In this document: piece by piece, positions 10,917 through 63,084 of the stretch
Layout: each line of letters begins with the position of its first letter
Position numbering within the stretch: position 1 is the first letter of the stretch
Assembly: GCF_024323335.1 (NCBI RefSeq)
Contig: NC_066583.1
Coordinates: 409,026,031 to 409,090,030 of the forward strand
Source of the DNA: Lathyrus oleraceus
Lineage: Eukaryota > Streptophyta > Magnoliopsida > Fabales > Fabaceae
Direction of reading: 5' to 3'
DNA length: 64,000 nt
Made by a program: the position numbers and the translations under genes
The notes under the pieces: generated by a model
What the model was told of the DNA's origin: nothing
What the model saw: the letters and a program-made list of their open reading frames with translations, nothing else
Databases searched by the model: none

Positions 10917-10976
10917 CAGGATATCGCATCCTGGGCCTACGTAGTTTGTCAGAAACAAACATCAGAGTCGACGTAG
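10917..10976 (-). ncRNA. Three-stem LTR module, copy A1
   Basis: Plus-strand coordinates: stem 1 CTACGT 10937-10942 / ACGTAG 10971-10976; stem 2 GTTTGT 10944-10949 / ACAAAC 10955-10960; stem 3 CAGGAT 10917-10922 / ATCCTG 10928-10933. On the sense strand an unpaired CTCTGAT lies between stems 1 and 2. Confidence 0.65.
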
Positions 10977-11003
10977 TTCGGGGGAAATGGGAAACGGGCT
11001 CGC

Positions 11004-11063
11004 TAGGATATCGCATCCTATGCCTACGTATCTCATCTGGAATGAGAATCAGAGCTGTCGTAG
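11004..11063 (-). ncRNA. Three-stem LTR module, copy A2
   Basis: Stem 1 CTACG 11024-11028 / CGTAG 11059-11063; stem 2 TCTCAT 11031-11036 / ATGAGA 11042-11047; stem 3 TAGGAT 11004-11009 / ATCCTA 11015-11020. Same unpaired CTCTGAT and CCAG loop on the sense strand as in other copies. Confidence 0.65.
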
Positions 11064-11491
11064 TTCGGCTAACGCACGCCGAAATAAAACACAACACAAA
11101 GACGCTAAGACGTCAAAAGAAACACACAAACGGAAACAGACTGCCAATGGCTGGGCTTACGTCCGACTCCGAACAACAAACGCAAATAAGGAAACGGAAT
11201 GCTAATCGCTGGTCTTACATCCAACTCCGAACAAACAAACGCAAATAGGAAACAGAATGCCAATGGTTGGTCTTACATCCGACTCCTAAACACACGCAAA
11301 AAGGTTATCAAACAGACAAGCTAACAGGGAGTCTGGCACTCGAGCCTAATAGCTATCAAGCAAACACCAAGAAGACGCTGAGACGTCAGAAGAAACAAAG
11401 AAGTTGAACACACAGACTAAAAGGGAGTCGGGAACTCGGACCTAATAGCTGTCAAGCAAAACACACGTAAAAAAGAAAAAGAGCGCCCGGA

Positions 11492-11552
11492 GAGATCTCG
11501 CACGATCTCCTGCCTACGTACCTCATCTGGTATGAGGATCAGGGCGACGTAG
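11492..11552 (-). ncRNA. Three-stem LTR module, copy A3
   Basis: Stem 1 CTACGT 11514-11519 / ACGTAG 11547-11552; stem 2 CCTCAT 11521-11526 / ATGAGG 11532-11537; stem 3 GAGATC 11492-11497 / GATCTC 11504-11509. Stems 2 and 3 have changed on both arms relative to copies A1 and A2. Confidence 0.65.
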
Positions 11553-14294
11553 TTCCCCTAAACAGGGGAGAAACTTCCTCCTAACCAGAGACCGAGGGAA
11601 TAACGAACTAAAAGGGAGACTGACTCGAGCCTAATAGTTGTCATGCAATCCACAATAGCCCTAGGTTGAGGTATCTAGTCAAGAGTTTGACTCACACAAG
11701 AAGTGAGGCAACTCAAGTCCTAATTCTACATACGTTTGACACCACATGCTATATGCAAACAAGCGGCTCATACAAGGCTGGGCTTTAGTCAAGGGGTCAT
11801 ATCGACCTTGACAAACAAGCCAAATACTGGAAGGGGTGTCTGATGCTCTTAACCACTGACATTGACCGTCAGGGTGAGCCGATGAAAGGTAATGAGGGTA
11901 AGACCTCATAGCTCTTAACCCTGGCCTGGGTGAGCTTAAGACAAAGAAGGTGTGGGGGTCCAGAATGAGGGACCCTATTCCACATGACTGACACAACAAG
12001 ATTTTGGGTGTTTATTCAAATTGAATCAGCACGTAATGCGAGCAAAATTAAAGACCGAACTGAATAGCAGGGGATGGATTACACATCCCTTCTATCTGCC
12101 AATGCCTCTTCACTTAGGAGGTCTTTACATGTAACCATGCCTCATTAAGGTCTTTAGCACAAAATTAAACAATCAAAAACATGGCCTCTTAAGGAGGGTT
12201 TCAGACAGGTGCCTGCCAAAGATAGCAGGTCTTCCAGACTACATGGAGGATAGAATGGTTACCTAGGTGGTATGCCAACCACAAGCAAAGCAAAGCAACT
12301 CAAGCAATAAGTTAAAGCGGCTAAAGTACCTGTAAGAAAGTCCAACAATCAGTATTCACATTCAGACATCCAAACAGAAAACAGACAAAAGCAACAGTGG
12401 TTTCCAATATGTACACAAAACAAGGTGCAAAGTGCAATCAACTCAAATTGTTTCATCATTCAAGTGACCTACAAAACAACAAGGTTTGTTAACCAAAGTA
12501 ACTTGCATCTCAAGTAAGGAGATCATATCATCCATGAGGACTAATTGCTTGAACCTGAAAGGAAAAGCTCAAATTGTGAGTACAAACCCCTAGGGCAAAG
12601 CCTAGGGTCAAAGTCAAAGCAAAAAGTCAAAACAGCAACCAATATTCAACATGCAACACATTTAAACAAGTAATAACATGTCCTAAAAAGGACCAAGTCT
12701 AAAGCCTCAAGCAAAGTCATCATATGAGCAAGATATGGCAAAGACAATTTCAAAGTACACAATTGGTCATCAAGAATGAAAATTCCATATTAAAACAGAA
12801 ATGAATCAAACAATCCTGGAAATTTTTATGTGCACACAATAGGTCAAACACAATCATCATGCCAAAATTATGATCAACAGAACTCAATTGACCTAGAAAT
12901 GAAAATGCACAAGTATGACATCAAATTTTGTGACACACATTGTCACACCATACATTCATGTGTCTAAAATAGAGATGAAAAATGCTAAAAATGCACAACC
13001 AAGCCTCAAAAATCATGTATCATGTTGGGAATCAGCATATAAAATTTCAAATCAATTGGCCAATGTATGAGCATTTCACAATAGCATGAATGAAGCATGT
13101 CACATTTTGCATATATGATCAATCAACAGTCCACAATCAAAATTCCAGAAATGATAAAATCATGAAATTCATATCAAGAAATAATAGACACTTCAAGGAA
13201 CATGTGAGAAAAAAATTGGAATTATTTGGAATCATTTTCAATTTTTAGTGATTTTTTGAATGTGATGAAAATATTTGAAATGAAAATGATCATGCATAAG
13301 AAATTATGGAGGGAAATGAGAAAAGGTTGAGAAATTTGAAAAAGTGCTCCCAGTGAGATTCGAACCGTGTAGCAACCAAAATGCGCTGGTAGATGAAATA
13401 AAACACAAAATGTCCCAAGCCAAGGATCGAAGCGTGTATGCAAGGCAAAACGCTGTAGTTTCATTAAATGACATGGCGTCCAGTCACGGTCAATGCATGT
13501 GTGGCGAAGGTCAAAAGAATGTAGGCCAATAGAATGGCCAGGAGGACGCTCGCGTGGAAGCCTGCGTGTACAAAACCCTAGCCAGCACAGTCTGTTGCAG
13601 ACGGCGGCTCATGCGACGAGGCAGGGTGGTTTCCACCGTCTTCTTCATAGAGACGGTGGAGCTACAGTGATGTTCATGCAAAAAAAAATCCAGAACCAGG
13701 CGAGAATTATATCAATGGAAAGCTTAGCTCATGTACAATACAAATCCAGCATCAATTCATATCAATTCATCACAACCAGTGCAAATCGAAGAGAAAACAT
13801 TTGGATCTACAAAACTTATATCAAGCATAACTCATGCAATACTTCACCATTTTTTATGAAATCTATATCAGAATTTTCAGCGTGAGGAGATCTATCTAAA
13901 CATGTGCATAAAATGAAGAAAGATGATGATCGAATTGTAACCTCTTGAAGAGCAGAATGATGAAATCGAGCGATTCAAGTGCCAAAAGTGTCCATATCCA
14001 ATCCTGAGATGATGTTATGAAGCTTGATGTAGAAATTGAAGCTTGAAACGAACTGGATCTTGATTAATTTGCCACTTCCATCTTCATGTTCTTGAGCTTG
14101 CACAACTTGATTTCTGCTCGAATTCTTCAAATCAAAGCTTGATCTGCACTCAATTACACTCCATAATCCAGAATACGCAAGAAAATTGCTATGTTATGTG
14201 GAGAATTTTCAAGTTTGAGATGAGAGAAAAATTTGGAGGGAAGAGAAATTTAGATCTAGAATGAGCAAAAACTTCGAATTCTGTTATGATTTGG

Positions 14295-14302
14295 CATTTA
14301 TA
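14295..14302 (-). promoter_or_regulatory. Putative TATA box of element A 5' LTR
   Basis: Minus-strand TATAAATG in a GC-poor context, within the 406 bp present here but deleted in the left LTR. B and D have TATAAATA in the corresponding part of their LTRs. Promoter use is inferred. Confidence 0.5.
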
Positions 14303-15547
14303 CTCTGTCCTAATCACATAGCTAATCCACATTTGCATTGGTTAATTAAGATTAAGGAAAATAAAGTGTATGACCAAAATTGGAAAATGTGAGGTGCCAT
14401 GCAAATTTGGACGTGAACAGTGCTGTATGGATGCTCAAAATCATTTAAAATCACTTCATGCACATGTTGGCAATGGTATTTTGTTCATATGATGCACCAA
14501 ATTCAAATTTTCTATTTTCCCTCCAAAATGAGTATGCATGGGCAAATGATCATATGATGAAATTTCATGCAATGTGATGATGGATTTGGAAATTATAGGT
14601 CATGACAAGCAATATGCAAAAAGAGTGACTCATTTTGGAGTTTTGAGTCAAAAGTTATGGCACTTTGATGTTTCATGCACACTTGGTGATCATTTGAGCA
14701 TAACTCCTCAACCATTCATTAGATGCTCATGATCTTGGACTTTTTGGAAATGGGAGAGAAATATCTTCAACGTTCATGTTGGACAAAATTTCATTTGAAG
14801 CTTCTTTGATGTTGGAAAGTCAAGTTGAAGATGGTCCAAAAACTTGCTATTTTTGGAAACTTTCAATTACAGGTCACTTTCCATTTTGGGAAACTTTTGA
14901 TCTGACTTCAAATTCTTCAAGGTATGTGTTTGACATGATAAATAAGACTCTTTTGAACATGAATGAAGTGTTGAAACTCAATTCTCCACCTCCAAGCCCT
15001 CAGTTGACTTTTATGGGCCCCAGATGACTTGAACATGCACTGTGGACTTTGAGCCTCTACCACCTGAGGAAATGGCTCAGAAATGAACCCCTAGCTCCAA
15101 TAAGCTCTCCACATAACCATGTGATCTCCATCTCAATAGAATACTTCACCTCCTTGAGAATCCCTGGTTGGAATAGAAGTCAGTGATTAGGGTTGACCAG
15201 AGGTCAAAACCCTAATCTAGAGGAAATTGATCATGAATCATGAAGCCCTTGGATGATGACATAACCATGATGATGGTGACATATCCTTACAAACAAGATA
15301 ATGCTCAACCTCCTTGAAGAACCAAGAAAACCCTAATTGAAGCACAAACCCTTAGATGGTTGGTGATCAATTCAATAAGACCCTCAGGCTTGAACCACAT
15401 CACTTCTCCATCTCTGAAAAGACTTTGGAGGATGACTTCATTATTTCCAAATGATATGCAATATGAAAATGCCTAATGTCCTAAAACATGAAATGCAATA
15501 TGCTAAACTAGTCCCAAGAAGAGGAGGGCAAATTTTGAGGTGTTACA

Positions 15548-21674: not shown

Positions 21675-24297
21675 GAGACTTCATCCCACTCATTTGAGAC
21701 GCCTAATTCAACCTGAAATGCTACAGAATTCTCTCCCTAACCATTACTAAAGAAGCAATTGCATTTTTCTCAAAAAATTTCAGATCTAGAATTCAGCTTC
21801 ATCTTGTTGTATTCTTAGATCTAATGCTTCTAGACCTTCACTATACATCTCATTGAACTTCTGTTTTGGTAAAGCAAGCAAGACAACAAGCTCAAGCTAC
21901 CAGAATTCAAGCACACACTCCAACTGGTATTTTCTTCGATTCTCCTAATCCTTTGACCTATTGGCTTAGATTTTGTGTTGGCTGAAGTCCTCTCAATGGA
22001 GGCATCATGTTTATGCTTTTAATTTTTGAAATTCATTGAGTTCATGATGAACACCAGATTTTTCCATCTCTGATTTCTCATACTATAAAGATCTAGAGGG
22101 AAAGTGGATGGTACAGGGATGATCTACATCATCCCATCTTTCTAATGATGTATAGATCGCACGTTTTGATGGAGGTTTGAGTTCCTGCAATTTGGCCGGA
22201 ATCCTGAAGCTCACCGGAGAAGACGGTGGCTCCGGTGGCTTCATCATCTCCAGATCAAATCTAGGCCGTGCGTTTGAATCTCCAGATTTAATCTCATCCT
22301 TTCTTTGTTATGACTTTTTATAATGCGTTGTGTGGCTCAGTTGACTTGGATCCATGGTAGGCGCGCGCTTCATGGCCTCATGATTTGCCAGCTCAATTAA
22401 TGAGCTTAGATCAGACGGTCCACGCTTTTTCCAATTTCTATTTTCTGTTTTTATTTTCCTTTTATTTTCTTTAATTCCATTTTATTTCAAAAATCAATAT
22501 CTCTTTCATTTTTATCCAAAAATTATGGGACCAATTGCATTATTTCCCAAATAAATTCTAGTTTCTATTTCTGATTTTTATTAATTTTTATTTTGTCATT
22601 TGATATTTTTTGTGAATTTTCTCTTTTTTGGTTATTTTTAATTCATTTTAAATAGTTTTTGATATTCAAAAAATGCAAAAATATTTTCCCAACATATTTG
22701 AATGATGATGGATCTATGAAAAATATTATCATCAATTTTTGAATTGATTTGAGATTTATTTGAGATTTTAATTCAATTAGGTTATTTTTATTCATTTTTA
22801 ATTGATTAAAAATAGTTTCTGACTTTAAAAAATGCTAAAAAAAATTGTCAAACTTTGTTTGACCTTGTTGAACTTAGGATAAATCACTTGGACCTTTCAA
22901 GGTTGATTTGAAGTGATTTTGAAGTTTGACCTTTCTTTAATATTTTCATTCAAGTTTATTTTAAATATTAAAAATGCCAAAAATATTTTATTCTTTTCTT
23001 GACATCCAATCTTCATCTCACTTCTGTTTTTGATTGTTTGACCTTGACTTTCAATGTTATTGGTCAACATATGAGGATTGGTATATGGTACTTCATTTAA
23101 TGCACTTTAATTTTGTCATTTCCATTTAATGCGCTAAATTTGCCTTATGGCACACTAACTATTGACAATTAACATTTACTTTATGCAATTTACTTTTATG
23201 CAATTTACTATTCTTGCACACATTATCCATTTGCTTTTCTCTTTTCTCATTTGAGCACATGTTTATGTTAATGCCATTTGCCTTTTGCTCACTTGAGCAC
23301 ATAATTGTGTATATATTATTGTGCTTGTGTTTTTGTTTTGATTATTGTGGACCAAAATGCAAAGAAATGGACTTAGTTTCTAGGACTTTCCCTATGCAAA
23401 GAAATGGAGAATTGGACTTAGTTTCTAGGACCTTCCTTATGCAAAATTGGAGTAAAAGGATCTTAATGATGAGGATGGATTAGAAGGACCAAATCTCTAA
23501 ACTCACTCTTATCCTTTCTTGTTTTACTCCATGAAACTTTTGATGTGTGTGCTTTTGTGCTAGGAGTTTCCATTTGAACTTAATTGGAGGACCATTGCCA
23601 TGTTCATCTAAAGAGAGAGATGCAAGAGCCATTGGAGGATTCTTAGAAGCATGACCTTGTGTTTGATTGCTTGAAATATTTGCTTTGTGGTTGCTTTATT
23701 CCAAAGGATGGGAGCTACTTGGATCATCAATATGATCTCAAGGGAGGAACTCCTAGTGTGGTTTCATTTCTTATCCCTCACCTTTTTGTTTTGCTTAGGA
23801 CTTAGCCATTCTTCTTCTTCCCTCCACTCTAACCCAAGCCAAAACTTTTTGTGCAAACATTTAACCATTGTTTTCAAACATTAGAAACCTAAGCCTTATG
23901 CTTTTGATTTTCAAACTTTCTTTTCATAACACTTATTTTGAATTGAATCTTTAGGTCAATTTTGACCATTTTTTGTATAGACTTCTAAATGGTAAATATA
24001 ACCCATTCAAATGTGTTTTTGTGGTTCCAATGGCCACTTTCTTAATCAACTTTTTCATCACCCTTAGCTATTAGGTTTGAGTTATCCTTGAGGTAGATAT
24101 AATACTCACCTATATCCTTAGTGATGGACAATGAGTCTTCCATGCTTATTATAGGGTTAACCCCTCACTAGCATGTTGAAGCTATCCTCACACGGTGGAT
24201 CTGTGGTTTGGTTGAGTTTTCTCCCTTTGATAACAAAAGACCTTAAGGCTTTTGGACCAATCAATTCACCAACTTGTTTTGAGATTCTTACCCCGAA

Positions 24298-24357
24298 CTA
24301 CGAGGTTTTGATCCTGATCTTTTTTTAAGATGGTACGTAGGCAATGGGTTTATCCAT
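24298..24357 (+). ncRNA. Three-stem LTR module, copy B1
   Basis: Stem 1 CTACG 24298-24302 / CGTAG 24336-24340; stem 2 ATCTT 24317-24321 / AAGAT 24327-24331; stem 3 ATGGG 24344-24348 / TCCAT 24353-24357 (one wobble). The spacing matches the A and F modules although this LTR belongs to a different family. Confidence 0.6.
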
Positions 24358-24467
24358 CCAAACACAAAATGTAAATAACTTGTACATTCTCCTCTCATAT
24401 CTTCAATCATGTTTGCACAAATAAATTTTCACAAAATACCAACCTTACAACAAGTGTGAAAAGGGCT

Positions 24468-24485: not shown

Positions 24486-24622
24486 TGTTTTGGGTGCCTA
24501 ATACCTTCCCATTACATAACCAACCCCCTTACCCAGATCTCTGTTTCTTTTACTAGTTTTTGTTAAAACTATTAGGTTTTTGTTCGCTTTCTAACCATTC
24601 CTTTGGATAAATAGAAGTGCGG

Positions 24623-30462: not shown

Positions 30463-33400
30463 CAACCCTCTTGGCTCAGAAATAAGGACCTCATGTCCAA
30501 GCTTTGAACCTGCAATCCAAACCATCACCATTAAAGGATAATCTTGAAGGTTTTCATTTAAAAATTGAGCTTCAAATCTCATTCTGTTTTGAGATTGAAA
30601 CTCCAAGATTCCAAGCTTTTCTTTGATTCAATTCATCTCCTACAAGCTTTTGAAGCCAAGCCAAGGTCAATTGGAAGCAAGATCAAGCAAGTTTAAAGCT
30701 CACTCGAAGGTGATTTTCCATAATTTTCATCTTTTCGATTCTCTCTTAATTCTTCACTATTCTTTGTGATTTTCGGTTGGCTGAAGTCCTACCAATGTAG
30801 GCAACAAGATTGAGTTTCTTTAAGGTCAAATCAAAGCAACTCAGTTCATGATTCTCAAAATTCAAATCCTTGTATCTTTTTATATACTTGGAATTGGAGA
30901 AAATTGAGGCCAGATTCGAGCTCCTGAGAATTTTTCCTTTAAACCCATGTCTTTGTTTTTCATTTCTATGGTGGTTTGTGGTGGACCAGTTCGGTGAGGT
31001 CCACCAGAGAAGAAGACCAGAGCCCTAGCTCCGGTGGTGTGTTGGCACCTTCCAAACCATCTGATCATTTTAAAATGTTTTAATCTTTGCCATTGGTTCT
31101 GATTACCATTGGTGTGGCGCATTGACCCAGTTCTTTGGTGGAACATGCACGTTTGACCATCAGATCTGCCACCTCAATTAATGAGGGAGATTTAATGGCC
31201 CTGTTTTTTTTGTATTTTCTGAATTTCCATTTAATCCACTTATATTATTTAATTCATAGAAATTGGATTTTTAATCCAAAAAATATGGGACTTTCACCAA
31301 AAATATTTAAATATTTTTCTCTTTCATATTCTGAATTAAAATTATTTTTGGATTAATCTTGATATTTTTCATGAATTAAATATTTTTGTGCATATTTTTA
31401 ATTGTTTAAAAATACTTATGACTTTTCCAAAATCATGAAATTTTTTGTCTAAGGTCCTTTGACCTTGCTTGACCTAAGATAAATCTCTTGGCCATTTGTT
31501 TGGTGTTTTGAAGAGATTTTAGGTTTTGACCAAATTAAATTGTATTTTAATGCATTTTTAATTTGATTTTTAATTGATTAAATGTGTAAAAATTATGTTG
31601 AGCCATTTTTATGGTCTTATGATGTTTGATTATTTCTTTGGGCCTTGGTCAAGGTTGATTTGACTTTTGTTGGATTAAAATCATTGGATTTAGGGGATCA
31701 ATGAAATGTACACTTCATCTCCCAAAATGAATGAATGGTTTTAATTTGATAAAATTCCTCCCATGACCAATTTGTGTTTCTCCCATTCCCCTCCCTCTTC
31801 ATCTTCATCCCTATTCTTTTCCATTCCCTCATTTGATCAATGAAATCTCTAATGTCTTAAGGCTAATTGGTTCATCAATGACCTTGTGTCAGATGAACCA
31901 ATACAAGTATGACTGAGATAGGTCCATCCCTCTTGATCTTTTCTTTTAGTGTGTGGTGTGTTTTAGGAGTTTGGTTCATTATACCAAATATCTAACATTC
32001 ATTAACAAATAAATTTTTATTTCCCGACCTCAGATAGTTATGACTTCTACAAAAGTCCAATTACGATTGCTTAACATAGAGCTAAATTTGACCTTAAAAG
32101 CATATCATTCTAGTAAGTGAGATTGTAAGTCTCCCATATTTCATGGTATTGTATGGAAACTTGACCTTCTTTCCTTTCATGAGAGCTAGTCGCATACATG
32201 TTGAATTATCCAAGTCAGAGCCCTTCTCATGGAAGACGTCTTGGTTTAAGGATCCATGCATGTGAATGGATGATTGAGTGTTCTCCAAAGAATGACTTAA
32301 TCAATTAAACAACACCACTAACACTTGACTAAATCTTGTTAATATTGCTTTACTTTCAAGTCATTTACTTTATGCAATTTAAATTTCAGTCATGTACCAT
32401 TCATTACCATTTACATTTCATTTAACTTGTTTATGTTTATGCCATTTTCATTTTGCTCATTTGAGCCATATCTTATGATTGTATATATTGTTTATGCATT
32501 TTGATTTTGTTTGTGGTCTTAGGACCTTAAAAAATTTAATAAACAACAAAAACCCTAAAAATATTTGGTGGACTGTTGATCTTGATATGAACTTTTGGAC
32601 TTAGGATTAGGCAACATTTCCTGTGCAAAAAGGACTTGGCCAATGCCAACATTCTGAGACCAAGTTATTATGAACCAAGCCTTCATCCGATGCAAGCCTT
32701 GGACTCTGTTTGAATTCATCTGTTACTTTGTCTTAGTGGTAATTGTTATTTTGATCTTGTGTCTGATGCTTTATTCTGAGTTGATCAAGGAATATTTCAT
32801 CTAATACATGAGAAGACAAAGAAGACTGCTAGCTATGGGATTTGCTTGCTTGGATATGGCTATATTCATTTGATACCTTTATCTTCGTGATGTCTGGATA
32901 TTGCTAATTGCTTGTTGATTATTTCTTGATTCAAAGTCTAAAGGGAAAGTGGGTTTTCTATATGACATTCTTGTCTGTTGGATTGCATCCCATTGGTCAG
33001 ATATTTTCAACTCTTAACTTTTAATTTTATGCTTAGGGTAGCCTCTTCATCTTCTCCCACTTCTTATATTTCAAAATTTCTCCCCCTTTTCAAAAACTTT
33101 CTTTGCTTGTGATTTCATACTTAGACCTTATTTCAAATAGAAACTTTGGCCTTATGCCAATGGATTTTCAAACTTTTTCTTAAATCAAATTTGTAAATAA
33201 ACTTAATCATATTGACTCCAAATTTCAAAAGACAAAAAGAACTAACAACTTCATTCAAATTTTTGGCCCTTTGTGCCCTTTTCATTTAAAGTTTTGTTAA
33301 AAGCAATTCACCAACTTTGAAATAGTTACCACAAACTATGAGGTTTTGATCCCTCATTTTTATGTTGGCACGTAGGAACAAGTACGAAGGTCTTGTCAAA

Positions 33401-33498
33401 CACAAAAATATAATTAATGAATTCTTTTCTCATCCCCATACTCTATTTTGCTCAAACATCTTTTATACCAAAAACACATACACACATAAAAAGGGCTC

Positions 33499-33514: not shown

Positions 33515-33661
33515 ACACTTTGGGTTCTAACACCTTCCCTCTGTGTAACCAACCCCCTTACCTGTAATCGATGGCATTTTATTAGTTTTGATTTGAAAAA
33601 TTCTTATCTTTGGGTTTTGTTCGTGCTTTTCTCTTTTCCTTTGGAAACAATAAAAGCGCGG

Positions 33662-40699: not shown

Positions 40700-42100
40700 T
40701 GTAACACCTCAAAATTTGCCCTCCTCTCTTGGGACTAGCTTAACATATTGCATATCGTTTTTAGGTCATTAGGCATTGCATATTGCATATCATGTGGTTA
40801 CATTGTGCCAGCCATTCTTCCAAGTCTTGATCAGAAGATGGGAGGTCATGTGCAAGCTAGGGTTTCATTGGACTGGTCATTAATCATCTGAGGGTGGTGG
40901 TTCAAAATTAGGGTTTGTGGTTCTCAAGGAGATTGGTCTTTATCTTGATTGAGATGATTCATCATCATCATCATGGTTTGTCATCATCAAGTGTTGGAGC
41001 ATAGTTCCTTGAGATTAGGGTTTTGACCACTGGTCAACCCTAATCAGTTGCATTGGGCCAATCAGGGCATAGCAAGGAGATGGGGTCTACAATGGATATG
41101 AGGATCATTCCATGATTGTATGGAGCTAATTGAGGCTAGGGTTTCATCCTTGAGCCATTTCATCAGAGAATTGGGGCTCAGATTGATCAGTGCATTGCCA
41201 AATTCATCTATCAGTTGAAAAAGTCAACTGTGGTCAACTGTGCTTGATTTTATGGATTTGGAGGTGGGAGAGAGTTGGATACACTTCATTCATGTTAGAA
41301 CAAGTGTTATTTGACATTGCAAAGCTCAAGAATGAAGAAAATAAAGTCAGGACAAAGATTGCCAAAAATAGAAAGTGACTTGTAATGGAAGTTTCCAAAA
41401 ATGGAAAGTTTTTGACCACAAAATTACATGTCCAAGGAAGCTTCAAATGAAAATTTGTTCAACATGAAAGTTGTAGATCTTGGTCTCACCTTTCCAAAAA
41501 GTCCAAGAACTTGAAATTCCCATGTATGGTTGGCAAGTTATGGTCCATTCAATTTCAAAAAAGACCCATAATCAAAGTGGCATAACTTTCACATGGAGTG
41601 TCCAAATTGAGTGATCTTTTTATGAGCAAACTCCATTTGACATGTACTTTCATGGTGCATAATCAAAATTCATCAAAAGTGGTCAATGCAAAAGGTCAAT
41701 TTTCAAGTGTACAATTAAAAATCCAAGGGCAAAATGGTCCAAATGGAGAAATACTTGGAATTTTGGGGTGGGAGTTTTTGCAACACCTCACATATGCCAA
41801 TTAGAAGTGGTTTGAACTATCATAAGTTTCCAAGGTGCAATATTTGGCAAGGCTACTTTTGAACTTGCACTTAAAATGCATTTTTTAGCATAGCATATTG
41901 GAAATGAGAAATACAATGCCAATTGCCATGGGATCAAAGCCAACACATTCCAAATGGTATTTAGAGGATGTCTGAGCTGTCACATAGCTGTCATGAGCCC
42001 TAATGTGGAAAGTCATTTTTGCCCTTTCACTCAAATTGCACATTATGCTAATTACATGTGTTTTGGCTAATTGGTGATTAAGTGAGTGATTAGAGTGGAG

Positions 42101-42108
42101 TATTTAAG
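42101..42108 (+). promoter_or_regulatory. Putative TATA-like box of element F LTR
   Basis: GGAGTATTTAAGCCTAATTG, a weaker TATA-like word about 1.4 kb into the LTR, the place of clear TATA boxes in A, B and D. The same bases are at 56612-56619. Confidence 0.4.
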
Positions 42109-45062
42109 CCTAATTGTAACAGAATGCAAATCACAATCACATTCTCCAAGATTCATAACAAACTTTCCCTCCAAAAGTGCAAATTCTCTCAAGAACATCA
42201 TCAACAAAATTCATCAAAACTCCACGAATTCTTCATCATTTGGCTTGGTTTTTGTTGCTTCATCTTCCATAGATCATAATCTCCAACTGTTTTGAGGAAT
42301 TGGAAGAAGACAACATCAAAATCGCAGCTGTCCAAAGTATGTGCATCAATGGCATTTCGAGATTTCTTCCAACTGAGGCATCTTTGAGCTAAAGTACGCA
42401 CTCCAATCATCTTCCTAAAGCTTCTCCTGCATCTGTTTTGGATCATTGAAGCCAAATACATCACGAATCACAACTGCCATCACTTTAAGGTGCAAATTCG
42501 AATCTTATGATTTCTTAAATTGTTATATGCGTTAGAAAGTTCATTCATCATAGATCATTATGCCATGCTTGGTTTGTGAAATGATTGAGTGAGTTGAGAG
42601 AAATCCGGATTTGAAGCTTTGGTGCACAAACTTAATTCAATCGATTCGTAATATACATGAAATTCTGGATGATTTGATGATGATATTTGTGATCCACACA
42701 CTTAGACCTTTCCATTGGTATATCATTTGTGAGTTTTGGTGAGAAAATGAGTGTAACCGAATTTGAAGAAGAAGAACGCGTGAACACAGGCAGGGACGAA
42801 GAAAATCTGGAAAAATTTCATGTTTGATCTTCTTTTTTCGCTTGGCATTTGAAATTGTTGTTTCCCGCCTGTACCGTCCAACCACAGAGCGCCACGCAAT
42901 AAATGAAAACGGTACCGTTTTGATCCTTGGCACGGTAATTACGAGTTTGCCGCTGTAATTAATTAATTCATTTTCATCTTAAATAATTATTCCATACTAT
43001 TTAACAAACTTAAAAAATCATAAAAAATTCATTATTAATCCAAAATTAGTGAGGCTTTTTTTGATAGATCCCAAATTTTGTCTAGAATTTTATAGACATG
43101 ATACCATAAGTTGTGCATGGAGAAATTTTGACCTTGCCTATTGATCTTTGACTTGTGTGCATATTTTGTATGTTTTGCCATTTTTAACATGAAATGCTCA
43201 TATTTGTAAAGAAATGGATGAAAATTTTTGTGCTTATTCTGGACATTTTTATGGTGATTTTCATGTAGAGTTTGTGAATTTTGGATACTTGGTTGATTAG
43301 ATATGAATTTTTGGATTAAGGTGTGACAATTTGTGTCACACCAAGCTAGGTCAACTTTCTGATTTTATTTAAAATGCTTAGGGATGTTGATTTGAGCTGA
43401 AATTTTGTGTGAATGATCATTGATATGTCAAGATAACATGTGATTTTTGCTGGAGTTTTTGGTTGCATTTTTTAATTGATTGATAATTTTCTTCTCTGTT
43501 GGCTAATTTGGCAACCTTGTGTGACACATGTTGGCATTTTGCTTGTGAAATTCTCATATGGTATTGGATGAAGATGAAATTTGACATGAGCATTCTAGAC
43601 ACATTGTGGGACATCATGCTTTTGGTCCCATTCATTTATTAATTGTTGTCACTGTTTTATGAATTATTGAAATGGATGCTTGCTTGGATGTCTTGAATTG
43701 GCTTACATAATTGTGTCTGGACTTTTTGATTTTCATTGACCTACTTTCTTTTGTCCAATTGAGCTGAAAATTAACATGCTACTTGTTGATTGTGTCCTGT
43801 TTAGGTGTGAATTATTTGAGGATTTTTGGAATTGTTTTGGTATGCCTTTGATTGAAGTCATTCTGTTTGGACTTTTGGTGTTGTATTTGACCTAGTTTGT
43901 GGTATATTGTGCATGAATTGATATTGGTGAATGGTATGAGCATGGGACCAATTGCATTTGCTTTTAATTTGTTTTAATGTGATTTTGGTTGGTTGGCACT
44001 TGCTGTTTAGAGTTTTTTATCCCTTTGGACCCTAGGCTTGGCCTAGTGGTCTAGTTTCTCACATTTGGTGTGGATTTTCAGGTTGAAATGCAAAAAGGCT
44101 TAAAGGAAAAAGTGCAAGTTGATTAAATTGAGTTTTGTTTGATGTTGTAAACTAACATTGATTTTGTGTTGTAGGTTTGATGCTTGAGCTTGAGCTCATA
44201 GCTTGCACTTGTGTGCATTAACTTGTGTTGTCTGTATAGATTAACATTTGCTGTTTATCGTTGGTTTGTCTGAGTACTGATGATACTTGATTGATTTCAG
44301 GTACATTTAGTCGCTTACAGTTCTTTAAGAACTTGCTTGCTGTTGCTTGGTTTTTTTAACCAGTTGAGGTAGAATCTCTATACTTCATGTAGTCTGGAAG
44401 ACCTGGCCTGTTACCTGGCCAGGCAACTGTCTGAAGTCCTCCTTAAGAGGCGATGTTTGTGGTTGTTTACATTTGTGCCCAAGCAGGTGAAGACCTCTAT
44501 GAGGCAATTGGCGGAATCCAAGGTATATGCAATCTATCCCCCGCTATTCTGTGAGTCGTCCCTCTGCTCACACCCCTGTGTTGACGCATTGGGACACAAA
44601 CCCAAGATCTTGTACTTTGTACAGTCGAGTCAGAGTCTTGAGCGTAGAAGGGTCCCTCCATTCTGGACCCACGCTCCTTTGTCTGAAGCTCTCCCTGGTC
44701 AGGGATAAGAGCTGTGAAGTCTAATCTTCACTCACCTATCATCTGCTTCACCTTAGCCCCTCAATGGCAAGGTTAAGAGCGAACACTACCCATGTACAGA
44801 TGACTTGCTTCGGCAGTCAAACCCATTGTTTGAGCCCACTTGACTGGTTATAGTGTGTGCTTTGTGAATATTTGTTTGCTCCGTTTGCTTGTATGCTTGT
44901 ATGCTTGCTTTCTTCCTGGATAGGATTAGATTGCAGTTGTGCAAGTAGGTAGAAACCTCAACGTAGGGCAATGATGCATGACAACACTAGGCTCGAGTCC
45001 AGCTCCCTGGTAGTGTGTCTTCCCTTGGTTTCTGGCTAGATTTTCTTTCCCTTTCAGGGGAA

Positions 45063-45123
45063 CTACATCGCCCTGATCCTCGTGCCAGACGAGGTATGTA
45101 GGCAGGAGACCGTGCGAGGTCTC
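45063..45123 (+). ncRNA. Three-stem LTR module, copy F1
   Basis: Stem 1 CTACAT 45063-45068 / ATGTAG 45096-45101; internal CCCTGAT; stem 2 CCTCGT 45078-45083 / ACGAGG 45089-45094 with loop GCCAG; stem 3 GAGACC 45106-45111 / GGTCTC 45118-45123. Stem 1 shows a paired change against the CTACG/CGTAG of other copies. Repeated at 59574-59634. Confidence 0.68.
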
Positions 45124-45325
45124 TCCGGGCACCTTTTTTTTCTTTTTGTGTGTGTTTACTTGTTATCTGCTTATGTGTCAGGATATGGACGTAAGCCCAG
45201 CGATTGGCTATACGTATCCTGATTGTGTTTGTTTGGTTCGGAAGCTGACGTAATTCCATCGAGTGGTTGTCGGGTTCCATGTTTGCCTGTGTGTTTGTTT
45301 GCTTGTTTGGCGTGCGTGAGCCGAA

Positions 45326-45386
45326 CTACGGCAGCTCTGATTCTCGTTCCAGACGAGATACGTAGGCATAGGATGCGACGTCCTAT
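45326..45386 (+). ncRNA. Three-stem LTR module, copy F2
   Basis: Stem 1 CTACG 45326-45330 / CGTAG 45361-45365; internal CTCTGAT; stem 2 TCTCGT 45342-45347 / ACGAGA 45353-45358 with loop TCCAG; stem 3 ATAGGA 45368-45373 / TCCTAT 45381-45386. Repeated at 59837-59897. Confidence 0.68.
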
Positions 45387-45480
45387 CGAGCTCTCTCCCC
45401 CTTAACCCCACCTGTGTTGTCTTCGGTGCGTGTGTGTGTGTGGTGTTTTAGCAACCTTTTATTTTCTTAGAGCGTGGATC

Positions 45481-45496
45481 CCGTCGAGTACGACGG
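45481..45496 (+). ncRNA. AGTA-loop hairpin in LTR (element F)
   Basis: CCGTCG-AGTA-CGACGG, then GAGGGGTGCTAATACCTTCC. Repeated at 59992-60007. Confidence 0.65.
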
Positions 45497-45627
45497 ACGT
45501 GAGGGGTGCTAATACCTTCCCCTTGCGTAACCGACTCCCTTACCCTTTCTCTTTGGTCGCGAGACCACGTCTTTTCCAGGTTTCTCTGAGCGTTTCCTTT
45601 CCCTATTTTGGGATAAATAACGCGCAG

Positions 45628-45638
45628 TGGCGGCTCTG
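45628..45638 (+). other. PBS-like word inside LTR (element F)
   Basis: TGGCGGCTCTG, one mismatch to the PBS start, 47 bases from the LTR end. Repeated at 60139-60149. Confidence 0.6.
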
Positions 45639-45687
45639 TGTTGTTTTTGTTTTAGCCCGCCGGTTGTTTTTTCGCAGATGCGACAGC

Positions 45688-53864: not shown

Positions 53865-54300
53865 TTCCCAGTCATCAGTAAGTGTCTGGTCGAGCTTTCT
53901 TTGGTGTCAGTAAACATCATTATTCGATGTCCAGTAAACGTCGAGTTATTTCCCAGTCATTGTTTAGTGTCTGGTCGAGCTTTCTTTGGTGTCAGTAAAC
54001 ATCATTATTCGATGTCCAGTAAACGTCGAGTTATTTCCCAGTCATTGTTTAGTGTCTGGTTGATCCTTGTTCGATGTCCTGTCAACATCATTGTTCGATG
54101 TCCTGTCAACATCATTGTTCGATGTCCTGTAAACATCATTGTTTGATGTCCTGTCAACATCATTATTCGATGTCCAGTAAACGTCGAGTTATTTCCCAGT
54201 CATTGTTTAGTGTCTGGTCGATCATTGTTTGATGTCCTGTCAACATCATTGTTCGATGTCCTGTCAACATCATTGTTCGATGTCTTATAAACATCAGTTT
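53865..54300 (+). repeat. Tandem repeats of two periods in 3' region
   Basis: Two or three 88-bp-type units (GTCTGGTCGAGCTTTCTTTG, then AGTAAACGTCGAGTTATTTC), the reverse of the array at 2640-3604, followed by TTGTTCGATGTCCTGTCAAC units of about 24-26 bp. Confidence 0.88.
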
Positions 54301-55210: not shown

Positions 55211-58200
55211 TGTAACACCTCAAAATTTGCCCTCCTCTCTTGGGACTAGCTTAACATATTGCATATCGTTTTTAGGTCATTAGGCATTGCATATTGCATA
55301 TCATGTGGTTACATTGTGCCAGCCATTCTTCCAAGTCTTGATCAGAAGATGGGAGGTCATGTGCAAGCTAGGGTTTCATTGGACTGGTCATTAATCATCT
55401 GAGGGTGGTGGTTCAAAACTAGGGTTTGTGGTTCTCAAGGAGATTGGTCTTTATCTTGATTGAGATGATTCATCATCATCATCATGGTTTGTCATTATCA
55501 AGTGTTGGAGCATAGTTCCTTGAGATTAGGGTTTTGACCACTGGTCAACCCTAATCAGTTGCATTGGGCCAATCAGGGCATAGCAAGGAGATGGGGTCTA
55601 CAATGGATATGAGGATCATTCCATGATTGTATGGAGCTAATTGAGGCTAGGGTTTCGTCCTTGAGCCATTTCATCAGAGAATTGGGGCTCAGATTGATCA
55701 GTGCATTGCCAAATTCATCTATCAGTTGAAAAAGTCAACTGTGGTCAACTGTGCTTGATTTTATGGATTTGGAGGTGGGAGAGAGTTGGATACACTTCAT
55801 TCATGTTAGAACAAGTGTTATTTGACATTGCAAAGCTCAAGAATGAAGAAAATAAAGTCAGGACAAAGATTGCCAAAAATAGAAAGTGACTTATAATGGA
55901 AGTTTCCAAAAATGGAAAGTTTTTTACCACAAAATTACATGTCCAAGGAAGCTTCAAATGAAAATTTGTTCAACATGAAAGTTGTAGATCTTGGTCTCAC
56001 CTTTCCAAAAAGTCCAAGAACTTGAAATTCCCATGTATGGTTGGCAAGTTATGGTCCATTCAATTTCAAAAAAGACCCATAATCAAAGTGGCATAACTTT
56101 CACATGGAGTGTCCAAATTGAGTGATCTTTTTATGAGCAAACTCCATTTGACATGTACTTTCATGGTGCATAATCAAAATTCATCAAAAGTGGTCAATGC
56201 AAAAGGTCAATTTTCAAGTGTACAATTAAAAATCCAAGGGCAAAATGGTCCAAATGGAGAAATACTTGGAATTTTGGGGTGGGAGTTTTTGCAACACCTC
56301 ACATATGCCAATTAGAAGTGGTTTGAACTATCATAAGTTTCCAAGGTGCAATATTTGGCAAGGCTACTTTTGAACTTGCACTTAAAATGCATTTTTTAGC
56401 ATAGCATATTGGAAATGAGAAATACAATGCCAATTGCCATGGGATCGAAGCCAACACATTCCAAATGGTATTTAGAGGATGTCTGAGCTGTCACATAGCT
56501 GTCATGAGCCCTAATGTGGAAAGTCATTTTTGCCCTTTCACTCAAATTGCACATTATGCTAATTACATGTGTTTTGGCTAATTGGTGATTAAGTGAGTGA
56601 TTAGAGTGGAGTATTTAAGCCTAATTGTAACAGAATGCAAATCACAATCACATTCTCCAAGATTCATAACAAACTTTCCCTCCAAAAGTGCAAATTCTCT
56701 CAAGAACATCATCAACAAAATTCATCAAAACTCCACGAATTCTTCATCATTTGGCTTGGTTTTTGTTGCTTCATCTTCCATAGATCATAATCTCCAACTG
56801 TTTTGAGGAATTGGAAGAAGACAACATCAAAATCGCAGCTGTCCAAAGTATGTGCATCAATGGCATTTCGAGATTTCTTCCAACTGAGGCATCTTTGAGC
56901 TAAAGTACGCACTCCAATCATCTTCCTAAAGCTTCTCCTGCATCTGTTTTGGATCATTGAAGCCAAATACATCACGAATCACAACTGCCATCACTTTAAG
57001 GTGCAAATTCGAATCTTATGATTTCTTAAATTGTTATATGCGTTAGAAAGTTCATTCATCATAGATCATTATGCCATGCTTGGTTTGTGAAATGATTGAG
57101 TGAGTTGAGAGAAATCCGGATTTGAAGCTTTGGTGCACAAACTTAATTCAATCGATTCGTAATATACATGAAATTCTGGATGATTTGATGATGATATTTG
57201 TGATCCACACACTTAGACCTTTCCATTGGTATATCATTTGTGAGTTTTGGTGAGAAAATGAGTGTAACCGAATTTGAAGAAGAAGAACGCGTGAACACAG
57301 GCAGGGACGAAGAAAATCTGGAAAAATTTCATGTTTGATCTTCTTTTTTCGCTTGGCATTTGAAATTGTTGTTTCCCGCCTGTACCGTCCAACCACAGAG
57401 CGCCACGCAATAAATGAAAACGGTACCGTTTTGATCCTTGGCACGGTAATTACGAGTTTGCCGCTGTAATTAATTAATTCATTTTCATCTTAAATAATTA
57501 TTCCATACTATTTAACAAACTTAAAAAATCATAAAAAATTCATTATTAATCCAAAATTAGTGAGGCTTTTTTTGATAGATCCCAAATTTTGTCTAGAATT
57601 TTATAGACATGATACCATAAGTTGTGCATGGAGAAATTTTGACCTTGCCTATTGATCTTTGACTTGTGTGCATATTTTGTATGTTTTGCCATTTTTAACA
57701 TGAAATGCTCATATTTGTAAAGAAATGGATGAAAATTTTTGTGCTTATTCTGGACATTTTTATGGTGATTTTCATGTAGAGTTTGTGAATTTTGGATACT
57801 TGGTTGATTAGATATGAATTTTTGGATTAAGGTGTGACAATTTGTGTCACACCAAGCTAGGTCAACTTTCTGATTTTATTTAAAATGCTTAGGGATGTTG
57901 ATTTGAGCTGAAATTTTGTGTGAATGATCATTGATATGTCAAGATAACATGTGATTTTTGCTGGAGTTTTTGGTTGCATTTTTTAATTGATTGATAATTT
58001 TCTTCTCTGTTGGCTAATTTGGCAACCTTGTGTGACACATGTTGGCATTTTGCTTGTGAAATTCTCATATGGTATTGGATGAAGATGAAATTTGACATGA
58101 GCATTCTAGACACATTGTGGGACATCATGCTTTTGGTCCCATTCATTTCTTAATTGTTGTCACTGTTTTATGAATTATTGAAATGGATGCTTGCTTGGAT

Positions 58201-59573
58201 GTCTTGAATTGGCTTACATAATTGTGTCTGGACTTTTTGATTTTCATTGACCTACTTTCTTTTGTCCAATTGAGCTGAAAATTAACATGCTACTTGTTGA
58301 TTGTGTCCTGTTTAGGTGTGAATTATTTGAGGATTTTTGGAATTGTTTTGGTATGCCTTTGATTGAAGTCATTCTGTTTGGACTTTTGGTGTTGTATTTG
58401 ACCTAGTTTGTGGTATATTGTGCATGAATTGATATTGGTGAATGGTATGAGCATGGGACCAATTGCATTTGCTTTTAATTTGTTTTAATGTGATTTTGGT
58501 TGGTTGGCACTTGCTGTTTAGAGTTTTTTATCCCTTTGGACCCTAGGCTTGGCCTAGTGGTCTAGTTTCTCACATTTGGTGTGGATTTTCAGGTTGAAAT
58601 GCAAAAAGGCTTAAAGGAAAAAGTGCAAGTTGATTAAATTGAGTTTTGTTTGATGTTGTAAACTAACATTGATTTTGTGTTGTAGGTTTGATGCTTGAGC
58701 TTGAGCTCATAGCTTGCACTTGTGTGCATTAACTTGTGTTGTCTGTATAGATTAACATTTGCTGTTTATCGTTGGTTTGTCTGAGTACTGATGATACTTG
58801 ATTGATTTCAGGTACATTTAGTCGCTTACAGTTCTTTAAGAACTTGCTTGCTGTTGCTTGGTTTTTTTAACCAGTTGAGGTAGAATCTCTATACTTCATG
58901 TAGTCTGGAAGACCTGGCCTGTTACCTGGCCAGGCAACTGTCTGAAGTCCTCCTTAAGAGGCGATGTTTGTGGTTGTTTACATTTGTGCCCAAGCAGGTG
59001 AAGACCTCTATGAGGCAATTGGCGGAATCCAAGGTATATGCAATCTATCCCCCGCTATTCTGTGAGTCGTCCCTCTGCTCACACCCCTGTGTTGACGCAT
59101 TGGGACACAAACCCAAGATCTTGTACTTTGTACAGTCGAGTCAGAGTCTTGAGCGTAGAAGGGTCCCTCCATTCTGGACCCACGCTCCTTTGTCTGAAGC
59201 TCTCCCTGGTCAGGGATAAGAGCTGTGAAGTCTAATCTTCACTCACCTATCATCTGCTTCACCTTAGCCCCTCAATGGCAAGGTTAAGAGCGAACACTAC
59301 CCATGTACAGATGACTTGCTTCGGCAGTCAAACCCATTGTTTGAGCCCACTTGACTGGTTATAGTGTGTGCTTTGTGAATATTTGTTTGCTCCGTTTGCT
59401 TGTATGCTTGTATGCTTGCTTTCTTCCTGGATAGGATTAGATTGCAGTTGTGCAAGTAGGTAGAAACCTCAACGTAGGGCAATGATGCATGACAACACTA
59501 GGCTCGAGTCCAGCTCCCTGGTAGTGTGTCTTCCCTTGGTTTCTGGCTAGATTTTCTTTCCCTTTCAGGGGAA

Positions 59574-59634
59574 CTACATCGCCCTGATCCTCGTGCCAGA
59601 CGAGGTATGTAGGCAGGAGACCGTGCGAGGTCTC
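59574..59634 (+). ncRNA. Three-stem LTR module, copy F1 in 3' LTR
   Basis: Same arms as 45063-45123. Confidence 0.68.
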
Positions 59635-59836
59635 TCCGGGCACCTTTTTTTTCTTTTTGTGTGTGTTTACTTGTTATCTGCTTGTGTGTCAGGATATGGA
59701 CGTAAGCCCAGCGATTGGCTATACGTATCCTGATTGTGTTTGTTTGGTTCGGAAGCTGACGTAATTCCATCGAGTGGTTGTGGGGTTCCATGTTTGCCTG
59801 TGTGTTTGTTTGCTTGTTTGGCGTGCGTGAGCCGAA

Positions 59837-59897
59837 CTACGGCAGCTCTGATTCTCGTTCCAGACGAGATACGTAGGCATAGGATGCGACGTCCTAT
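59837..59897 (+). ncRNA. Three-stem LTR module, copy F2 in 3' LTR
   Basis: Same arms as 45326-45386. Confidence 0.68.
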
Positions 59898-60196
59898 CGA
59901 GCTCTCTCCCCCTTAACCCCACATGTGTTGTCTTCGGTGCGTGTGTGTGTGTGGTGTTTTAGCAACCTTTTCTTTTCTTAGAGCGTGGATCCCGTCGAGT
60001 ACGACGGACGTGAGGGGTGCTAATACCTTCCCCTTGCGTAACCGACTCCCTTACCCTTTCTCTTTGGTCGCGAGACCACGTCTTTTCCAGGTTTCTCTGA
60101 GCGTTTCCTTTCCCTATTTTGGGATAAATAACGCGCAGTGGCGGCTCTGTGTTGTTTTTTGTTTCAGCCCGCCGGTTGTTTTTCGCGGATGCGACA

Positions 60197-60201
60197 GTGT
60201 G
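60197..60201. repeat. Target duplication of element F, right copy (GTGTG)
   Basis: Directly after the LTR end GATGCGACA; matches 40695-40699. Confidence 0.92.
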
Positions 60202-61570: not shown

Positions 61571-61837
61571 CTTAAACGGTCAAAAATGAGTTTTTGAGAC
61601 ATATTTTGGTCAATTCAAACCATTCTCTTATGAACCTAAGGTACCAACGATGATCAAGTACATTATTGACATATATGAGATGCTCATATATGCATGGACA
61701 CATTAATCTTATACTTTGAGCATGTTAGAGAATGAATGCACTCTACGATATGATGACACCGTCCAAAGTACACAGTATGAGCAACTAAAAGGGTTTGACA
61801 TCATTAAAACAAAGACTAAGAACCTTTTCTCTCACAC

Positions 61838-62340
61838 GAATGACCCAGTTGCTCATTGTATTCACCTTTATTCATAGACTTTAACACAATTAAAATCACA
61901 TAATTGTCAAGTCTCCCTTCACTGCAAATAGTGCAATAAGCAGAAGACTCTACCAACAACTTATCAATTAGGATTCAAGTTGTATGTCATGAGCCTTAAG
62001 TAATAAAGACTGATGAGAATGGAGAATTCATATCCTTGTCTAGGGTATCCTTGGGTATGGGACGAATGACCCAGTTGCTCAAGGTATTCACCTTTGTTCA
62101 TAGACTTTAGTGTAATTCGAATCGAATGATTAATAAGACCTTTATCATCACAAGTAGAAGCAAGGATTCTTCTCCAACAACTTGAAAGTTATGATGAGAA
62201 TCACATGCCACGAGCCTTAAGTAGTAAATAATGAATAAGAGTGGAGAATTCTACTAACTCATTCTGAATATCTTTGGGTATGGGACGGATGACCCAGTTG
62301 CTCATTGTATTTACCTTTACTCATAGACTTTAGTGTGGTT
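61838..62340. repeat. ~224-bp tandem repeat, about 2.3 copies
   Basis: GAATGACCCAGTTGCTCA followed by TTCACCTTTATTCATAGACTT starts at about 61838, 62063 and 62287. Between them lie GAGCCTTAAGTARTAAA and GAGAATTC words. Confidence 0.88.
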
Positions 62341-62431
62341 CATATCCAATGAATGCCAAGTCTTCTTCATCGTCTAGTATCATGTCATTTCCCTTGCCTC
62401 AATCTCTTGCTGTCAGCCGTAGTAGATTGAA

Positions 62432-62495
62432 CTACGAGAGCTCTGACTTTCTCATTGTACAGTGAGAATACGTAGGCACAGGAACTCAAATTCTT
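62432..62495 (+). ncRNA. Three-stem LTR module, copy G1
   Basis: Stem 1 CTACG 62432-62436 / CGTAG 62471-62475; internal CTCTGA; stem 2 TTCTCA 62449-62454 / TGAGAA 62463-62468; stem 3 AGGAA 62480-62484 / TTCTT 62491-62495 (one wobble). It marks an Ogre-like LTR remnant that I could not delimit. Confidence 0.62.
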
Positions 62496-63022
62496 TGTGA
62501 GCTACCCTATTTATTGCTACCTTATTTATCCTTCCTTCTTCATTCATCAATCAATACCATCTTTTTGAGATCAAATATCACTTTTCCTTGGATTCCATGC
62601 ATATCCTTTTAGGATGATATAACGGCAGTCCGCCTTATGAACCAAGAGATGTTTGGCTACAAAACCAAACACTTTATTCCTCTTTTTTTGTGTGGCTAAG
62701 ATACATGTTTACTCTCCGATTCAAAGTTTATCCCTTCATTCATCAAAGATACCATTCTTCTTTGGTTTCAAATTGTTTGTTCCCTATAGTGATACATTAT
62801 CCCCTATACTAAATAACACTGCAGCCAACCCTTGAAGTTATGTTTTTCTTATCAGTCCCTGTTGCCTAGGCAAATACCTCTCTCTTTGTTTCCACTACAG
62901 TTAACCCTTGAAATTGTGTTTGTCTTGTGAGTTGATGTTTCTTAGACAAACATCTCTTTATTGCTGGTACAAGTTATACTTTTCATCACTTATCTCTCCC
63001 TTTGTTCTTGTGGTTCCACGGA
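62496..63022. other. Unassigned repeat-like sequence
   Basis: Lies between the two modules. It has a diverged direct repeat of about 80 bp (CAACCCTTGAAGTTATGTTT at about 62824; TTAACCCTTGAAATTGTGTT at about 62902). No credible gene. Confidence 0.5.
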
Positions 63023-63084
63023 CTACAAATGCTCTGACTTCTCATTGCACGATGAGAATACGTAGGCACGAGGATGCGAATCCT
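63023..63084 (+). ncRNA. Three-stem LTR module, copy G2
   Basis: Stem 1 reduced to CTAC 63023-63026 / GTAG 63062-63065; stem 2 TTCTCAT 63039-63045 / ATGAGAA 63052-63058; stem 3 AGGAT 63071-63075 / ATCCT 63080-63084. Stems 2 and 3 are perfect. Confidence 0.6.

Follow-up and report, generated by a model that had tools for sequence, protein, structure and literature searches.

A repeated, probably pseudoknotted RNA module in Ogre/Tat-type long terminal repeats of Lathyrus oleraceus

We analysed a 64,000-base window of Lathyrus oleraceus DNA (contig NC_066583.1, forward-strand positions 409,026,031 to 409,090,030; G+C content 39.7%), whose content is plant long terminal repeat (LTR) retrotransposons, and describe in it a short repeated module that very probably forms an RNA pseudoknot under selection. 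Two of the elements, A and F, carry Ogre/Tat-type LTRs of the plant Ty3/gypsy group and show the features of this type that we tested. The two LTRs of F align over 4988 columns with 99.7% identity, and the 5' one is followed by TGGCGACTCTGCTGGGGA, which we take to be a primer-binding site. Element A runs along the minus strand and contains a Retrotrans_gag domain; the outer end of its LTR is set at TGTAACACC from resemblance to F. An integrase frame with rve and H2C2 domains and plant relatives lies outside both elements (16121-16861), and a passage in PMC6317226 includes in the definition of Tat an additional RNase H between the RNase H (RH) and integrase domains. No tRNA was found within the window.

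Copies and architecture of the module

The window holds 11 copies of the module, nine distinct and two that are LTR twins (Table 1). A first-pass annotation had named ten of them (A1-A3, B1, F1 and F2 in both LTRs, G1 and G2), with positions and arms that our analysis reproduces; B2 is the eleventh. A covariance model, which that annotation had proposed as a check, was built from 11 distinct copies (the nine of the window and two from outside it, L024 and L065, described below; the identical F twins were excluded) and gives 11 window matches of 56-91 bits with no further window match at E<=10. These matches are training sequences or their twins and speak for completeness, not as independent proof. 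The copies had been placed in two LTR families; blastn matches of at least 120 bp instead define three sequence groups, A/F, B1/B2 and G, with LTR boundaries demonstrated for A and F. A1 and A2 each align with F2 and look like tandem relatives, A2/F2 and A3/F1 are closely related pairs, and the stretches hosting B1 and B2 are 68.7% identical over 451 bp. Tail motifs common with A/F suggest that B1, B2 and L024 also lie in LTRs, while the G region has no blastn match of at least 120 bp to the window's other elements and unrelated sequence comes after its copies. The A and F modules lie about 290-950 nucleotides (nt) before the LTR inner end, with three modules in the LTR of A, two in that of F, and one each for B1, B2 and L024 in the available sequence.

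The module had been described as three-stemmed. All three stems, here P1, P3 and P4 (stems 1, 2 and 3 of the earlier numbering), are present, and the description is incomplete: the 4-5 nt directly 5' of an invariant UGA pair with the 4-5 nt directly 3' of P4. Because this fourth helix (PK, the pseudoknot helix) crosses P1, the module is a pseudoknot. The pairing was first spotted in A and F and afterwards checked in the other copies. Along the sense strand the order is GAA, P1 5' (CUACG), 1-2 nt, PK 5' (4-5 nt), UGAY, P3, UA, P1 3' (CGUAG), GCA, P4, C and PK 3', in 72-77 nt for the window copies. Such a fold would have P3 and P4 meet in a three-way junction closed by PK, with the upstream CUACG able to pair into the linker between these two hairpins. 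The unpaired letters are nearly invariant across the 11 distinct copies (UGA in 11; UA, GGC and the C before PK 3' in 10 each; GAA in nine). Conserved letters of this kind around stems that vary yet remain paired fit the expectation for an RNA that makes use of both its shape and its core.

Table 1. Module copies, host LTRs and neighbouring motifs (window positions unless a contig is named; PK arms in letters where given)
Feature	Positions	Strand	Details
F 5' LTR	40700..45686	+	99.7% identity to 55211-60197
F 3' LTR	55211..60197	+	blastn
F primer-binding-site-like TGGCGACTCTGCTGGGGA	45688	+	after 5' LTR
A 5' LTR	10607..15547	-	runs ~15547 to 10607; inner end approximate
A primer-binding-site-like motif	10604-10587	-	next to 5' LTR
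A1	10910..10981	-	P1 10972-10976/10937-10941; PK 10965-10969 (GACTC)/10910-10914 (GAGTC); P3 10955-10960/10944-10949; P4 10928-10933/10917-10922
A2	10997..11068	-	P1 11059-11063/11024-11028; PK 11052-11056 (AGCTC)/10997-11001 (GAGCC), 4/5 pair (GCTC/GAGC); P3 11042-11047/11031-11036; P4 11015-11020/11004-11009
A3	11484..11557	-	P1 11548-11552/11514-11518; PK 11542-11546 (CGCCC)/11484-11488 (GGGCG); P3 11532-11537/11521-11526; P4 11504-11509/11492-11497
B1	24293..24364	+	P1 24298-24302/24336-24340; PK 24304-24308 (GGTTT)/24360-24364 (AAACA), 4/5 pair (GTTT/AAAC); P3 24313-24321/24327-24333, 2-nt bulge; P4 24344-24347/24354-24357
B2	33331..33402	+	P1 33336-33340 (CTATG)/33371-33375; PK 33342-33346/33398-33402 (GTTT/AAAC), 4/5 pair; P3 33351-33357/33362-33368, 5/7 pair; P4 33378-33382/33392-33396
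F1, 5' LTR	45058..45131	+	P1 45063-45067 (CTACA)/45097-45101 (TGTAG); PK 45069-45073/45127-45131 (GCCC/GGGC), 4/5 pair; P3 45078-45083/45089-45094; P4 45106-45111/45118-45123
F2, 5' LTR	45321..45392	+	P1 45326-45330/45361-45365; PK 45333-45337 (AGCTC)/45388-45392 (GAGCT); P3 45342-45347/45353-45358; P4 45369-45374/45380-45385
F1 twin, 3' LTR	59569..59642	+	identical to F1
F2 twin, 3' LTR	59832..59903	+	identical to F2
G1	62427..62503	+	P1 62432-62436/62471-62475; PK 62439-62443 (AGCTC)/62499-62503 (GAGCT); P3 62448-62454/62463-62468; P4 62481-62484/62491-62495, bulge
G2	63018..63093	+	P1 63023-63027 (CTACA)/63061-63065 (CGTAG), one A.C mismatch; PK 63030-63034 (TGCTC)/63089-63093 (GAGCA); P3 63039-63045/63052-63058; P4 63071-63075/63080-63084, GCGA loop
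~39-nt unit	45181-45219, 45240-45278	+	twins 59692-59730, 59751-59789
~39-nt unit	11132-11170, 11190-11228, 11248-11286	-	
GGGTGC..ACCTTCCC..GTAACC motif	~45504-45532, 24492-24520, 33522-33550	+	L024 3075-3118; B2 (33522-33550) and L024 computed, others hand-counted
GGGTGC..ACCTTCCC..GTAACC motif	~10758-10786	-	hand-counted
TGGCGRCTC	45628, 45688	+	
TGGCGRCTC	10660, 10604	-	
TGGCGRCTC	24623; 33662		L024 3232, 3515

Paired change in the helices

In a MAFFT alignment of the 11 distinct copies, with 22 named pairs and 234 cells, 94.9% of the cells are paired, against a mean of 75.6% after shuffling, and none of 500 shuffles reaches the observed value; six slid registers pair in only 31-46% of cells. 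The earlier claim that both arms change together is borne out for 17 of the 22 pairs (shuffle mean 9.7, reached in 0/500), most strongly in PK (5/5), P3 (6/6) and P4 (5/5). By helix, the paired fraction is 98.0% in PK, 98.2% in P1, 94.1% in P4 and 89.4% in P3, the last lowered because G1 and B1 are slightly out of register there. The inner four base pairs of PK are Watson-Crick in all 44 cells from the 11 copies while taking six different sequences and lying right before UGA; this pairing has a permutation p of about 1e-5, uncorrected for relatedness among copies. Each copy has the complement of its own PK 4-mer within the next 45 nt (11/11, preceded by C in 10); when the 4-mer is swapped with that of a copy of different PK, the complement is present in 3 of 94 pairings.

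Descent was modelled by replaying substitutions on a FastTree tree in 300 replicates, using purpose-written R-scape-like code, not R-scape itself, and a tree built from the same alignment columns and few sequences. Under this null the paired fraction averages 0.495 and never exceeds 0.650 (observed 0.949), and at most 14 pairs change on both sides (observed 17). Four of the 22 named pairs covary above it at E<0.05: PK 19-89, 21-87 and 22-86, and P3 27-48. PK, P3 and P4 thus covary, while pairing in P1 is weakly supported. P1 hardly varies: of its five pairs one changes on both sides, one on one side and three never vary, with an A-U for G-C replacement in F1, a G.U in B2 and an A.C mismatch in G2. 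On the sense strand G.U cells outnumber A.C cells by 13 to 4 (one-sided binomial p 0.025, cells not independent). The earlier proposal of selection on RNA or cruciform structure keeps its RNA half, through the tree null and the G.U excess, and its cruciform half is disfavoured.

A selected pseudoknot also has to be weighed against several observations that count against it. When all 4186 column pairs are tested, P3 27-48 alone remains at E<0.05, and there are only 11 sequences, several of them closely related. The near-invariance of P1 could mean a conserved bound sequence, and G2 breaks the helix. Dinucleotide shuffles of the 45 nt contain the PK complement in 10-77% of cases, varying by copy, so that single copies prove little; the rate is high because the dinucleotides of the PK 4-mer are retained, and our reading therefore leans on the tree null and on the swaps between copies. 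Folding-energy z-scores run from -2.38 to +0.49 and fall below -2 in only three of 11 copies. P1 and PK may compete instead of coexisting. The transcript leader named in the first-pass annotation is one candidate placement, and the 3' untranslated region is another: a TATAAAT about 1.25 kb into the element A LTR, if used as the start, would place the modules in the leader, and in F, A and B1 an ATAAATA near the end of the LTR may act either as a late TATA box or as a poly(A) signal. Finally, the module shares its conservation with at least one other part of the LTR end. A comparison of A with F does speak for the modules, which align without gaps at 89-90% identity (66/74 and 65/72) next to stretches of 24-73% identity with many gaps, some from extra copies or repeats in A; the LTR tail, however, returns to 95% (45465-45538, 70/74), 77% (45539-45612) and 87% (45613-45687).

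Proposed role and alternative readings

We propose that the module is a compact pseudoknotted RNA near the inner LTR end whose folded shape would be selected in the sense transcript, the molecule in which, judging from the letters, it quite probably acts. It would form a cis recognition surface on the full-length element RNA, bound by the element's Gag or by a host factor and thereby marking genomic RNA that has not been spliced, so that it is exported from the nucleus or packaged, with repeated copies raising avidity. As an overall explanation, a pseudoknot selected for its shape and serving as a cis recognition element of the transcript, most likely in export, packaging or stability, is our best candidate, held tentatively and at somewhat short of an even chance; export or packaging as its particular role is a more doubtful suggestion, drawn by analogy. 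That role would be the most economical one because the spliced intron reported for Ogre RNA would oblige genomic copies of such elements to leave the nucleus unspliced, and repetition within the LTR is easier to reconcile with binding than with cutting. Passages of PMC12786077 describe functional introns in Ogre and a structured pararetroviral leader that recruits TREX. In parts of PMC5454406, Ty1 pseudoknot mutants lose retrotransposition and compensatory mutants regain part of it, and in an excerpt of PMC3362945 a MusD export element depends on its pseudoknot configuration more than on exact letters. By analogy, Ty1 and MusD show that pseudoknots of LTR elements can serve retrotransposition, RNA stability or export. 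The likeness to Ty1 lies in a pseudoknot with hairpins inside its loops in LTR-retrotransposon RNA; the Ty1 structure spans 326 nt, has 7-bp and 8-bp stems and uses the RNA 5' terminus (same parts of PMC5454406), whereas the module is 72-77 nt long and repeated. The mouse MusD transport element (MTE) likewise is a retrotransposon-RNA pseudoknot in which configuration counts over letters, and differs in also having a kissing loop and a demonstrated nuclear export function, the module being known from sequence alone.

Other readings keep a pseudoknot, or its parts, and change what it does. Structured leaders serve translation in some retroelements, and a leader location, if true, places the module before the element's open reading frames, where, for the long Ogre leader, it could provide internal entry, shunting or shielding; with no Rfam match at gathering score and a leader position that is itself an assumption, we think a translation element rather improbable. 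P1 and the PK stem could also be alternative folds of an RNA switch, toggled by Gag or translation. Of the 11 nested minimum-energy folds, six contain the PK stem (A1, A2, A3, F1, F2, G2), four contain P1 (G1, B1, L024, L065) and that of B2 contains neither; the programs used omit pseudoknots and so cannot display the two together. Such switching is discussed for Ty1 in part of PMC5454406. With 1-2 nt to span PK and, around P4, GCA and C, the linkers seem to permit both helices, conservation and linker lengths point to their coexistence, and nearly every copy retains the pairs of both helices, though a switch would need that too; we consider a switch unlikely.

Two readings dispense with RNA structure, and each has very little to recommend it. 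Protein sites or cruciforms in DNA could draw on the CTACG..CGTAG dyad, and a coding frame (..ALIL.PDE.RR..) is open through the A and F modules and has five protein-database matches; against both, the PK arms cross P1, so that no simple cruciform holds the two, and G.U cells exceed A.C cells. The coding explanation was rejected because the A/F frame is not open in G1, G2, B1 or B2: no frame crosses G1, G2 and B2, and only a different one crosses B1. Shared descent or gene conversion without selection would build on the homology of the A/F copies, with A1 and A2 both aligning to F2, and is countered by the tree-aware null, which pairs at most 65% of cells against 94.9% on a tree from the same columns.

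Catalysis is suggested by the order of complementary strands, which is that of ribozymes like the one of hepatitis delta virus (HDV): P1, P2, P3 hairpin, P1', P4 hairpin, P2'. An HDV-like ribozyme would cleave the transcript close to the 5' side of P1. HDV, R2 and L1Tc/Pr77 share with the module this strand order, a short P1-P2 linker, a C before P2' (just before PK 3' in 10/11 copies) and a retroelement setting, and P4 shrinks to about 3 bp in L024. The HDV-like fold has a 7-bp P1, a 3-bp P3 directly after P2, and P1.1 pairs; the module lacks this combination (P1.1 judged by eye), with a P1 mostly of 5 bp, a P3 of 5-9 bp and four nt, UGAY, between PK 5' and P3. The GAA upstream of P1, kept in nine of 11 copies, would be left outside by an HDV-type cut, and the multiple cut sites that each LTR of A or F would then have, from its several copies, should harm an LTR element. 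No Rfam 15 family reaches gathering score in the window; at E<=10, positions 45000-45450 give two non-ribozyme families far below cut-off and no HDV family, and at E<=5, L024 and L065 give four sub-threshold matches, none a ribozyme and none an HDV family. Retrotransposons do contain HDV-like ribozymes, SIDER2 among them with a tandem pair of signatures (from a portion of PMC4035085), and we regard self-cleavage here as a distinctly unlikely analogy. Hammerheads and retrozymes were rejected. They resemble the module as structured RNA in plant LTRs, and the hammerhead core is CUGANGA ... GAAA; CTGANGA occurs in none of the 11 copies (nearest, CTGATGT in A1) and no Rfam match reaches gathering score.

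An exonuclease block, in which the PK-closed three-way junction would brace against a 5'-3' exonuclease of XRN4 type and the repeats would provide redundancy, is an analogy we rate no more probable than self-cleavage. In the module the upstream strand pairs with the inter-hairpin linker, a different junction strand from the one engaged in flaviviral exonuclease-resistant RNAs (xrRNAs); no xrRNA family appears at Rfam gathering score, and loop-to-downstream pairing was not noticed by eye, with no systematic search made. A three-way junction with paired-in upstream nucleotides (the weakly supported P1 part of the module), if it forms, and the repeated copies would resemble flaviviral xrRNAs as they appear in passages of PMC5760640. 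By the same kind of analogy, the module could stand for a small RNA of a new class, catalytic or exonuclease-blocking, whose strand order is HDV-like, whose core is its own (GAA, UGAY, UA, GGCA, C) and which has several copies per LTR across plant Ogre/Tat elements; we think this unlikely.

The cis recognition element that we prefer would place the fold beside the pseudoknotted cis elements of LTR retroelements, to which we liken it; among the RNA families tested there is none whose definition it fits completely. Consistent with the annotation's statement that no description was known, none appears in the titles and abstract openings of the literature matches listed, mostly open-access papers, which also report no RNA structure for Ogre/Tat elements. 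The module would be an addition to the RNA families of Rfam 15, which has no match to it. Ogre/Tat elements form a large share of Fabeae genomes and are among their most abundant sequences, and a small, repeated, well-bounded pseudoknot would offer a handle on the export, packaging or protection of plant LTR-retrotransposon RNA.

Copies elsewhere and neighbouring motifs

Outside the window we searched with the pattern ACTACG..TGA..TACGTAGGCA, which imposes P1, TGA and TACGTAGGCA, and nothing on PK, P3 or P4. It matched 79 loci in 70 distinct contexts, of which 12 have the PK 4-mer complement, four a flush P3 of at least 5 bp and four the GAA; all three features occur only in L024 and L065. These score 55.7 and 66.7 bits with the covariance model, in which both are included, against at most 18.3 bits for the other loci. 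Both carry the fold with new arms, and their PK sequences (GACTT/AAGTC in L024, GCCTT/AAGGC in L065) are found in no window copy; L024 has mostly lost P4, keeping only GCA/TGC. L024 lies on contig NZ_QPKJ02000028.1, filed under Solirubrobacter, with a primer-binding-site-like tggcgactccactgggga at 3515; it is probably a plant Tat LTR, and its presence in this GTDB representative genome is probably contamination. L065 places the module at the end of a contig (7700-8000) of a metagenome-assembled Bacilli genome, beyond a gene that by eye resembles a truncated SSB, and is a probable chimera.

The same pattern has 21 matches in viral contigs, none with the fold by eye and none above 14 bits with the model, and integrase scans of viral contigs return no relative. 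Another scan, with a conserved LTR motif that lies 3' of the module, led to a single contig, phage-like in reading and without a model match. The five protein-database matches to the translated A module come from ENA contigs; judged by their residues, they may hold additional copies, among them an A2-like plus A1-like tandem in P0121, and they were not used for pairing.

Several other motifs accompany the modules (Table 1). A second repeated hairpin-like unit of about 39 nt (GGA..GAYGTAA..CCA..TGG..TCC) lies between them, at 58-nt spacing in A, and some of its paired-looking arms change together by eye. In A, F, B1, B2 and L024, a motif near GGGTGC..ACCTTCCC..GTAACC lies downstream of the modules; its F copy falls in the stretch with 95% identity to A. 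TGGCGRCTC stands right after an ATAAATA/AATAAA-like stretch close to where the LTR ends, and a second time within the primer-binding-site-like motif of A, F and L024. Within the elements themselves, a 579-residue open frame with Pfam DUF7745 (46724-48460) begins about 1 kb past the primer-binding-site-like motif of F, and element A contains an 88-bp tandem array (2637-3602) whose units also match about 53865-54271 in F.

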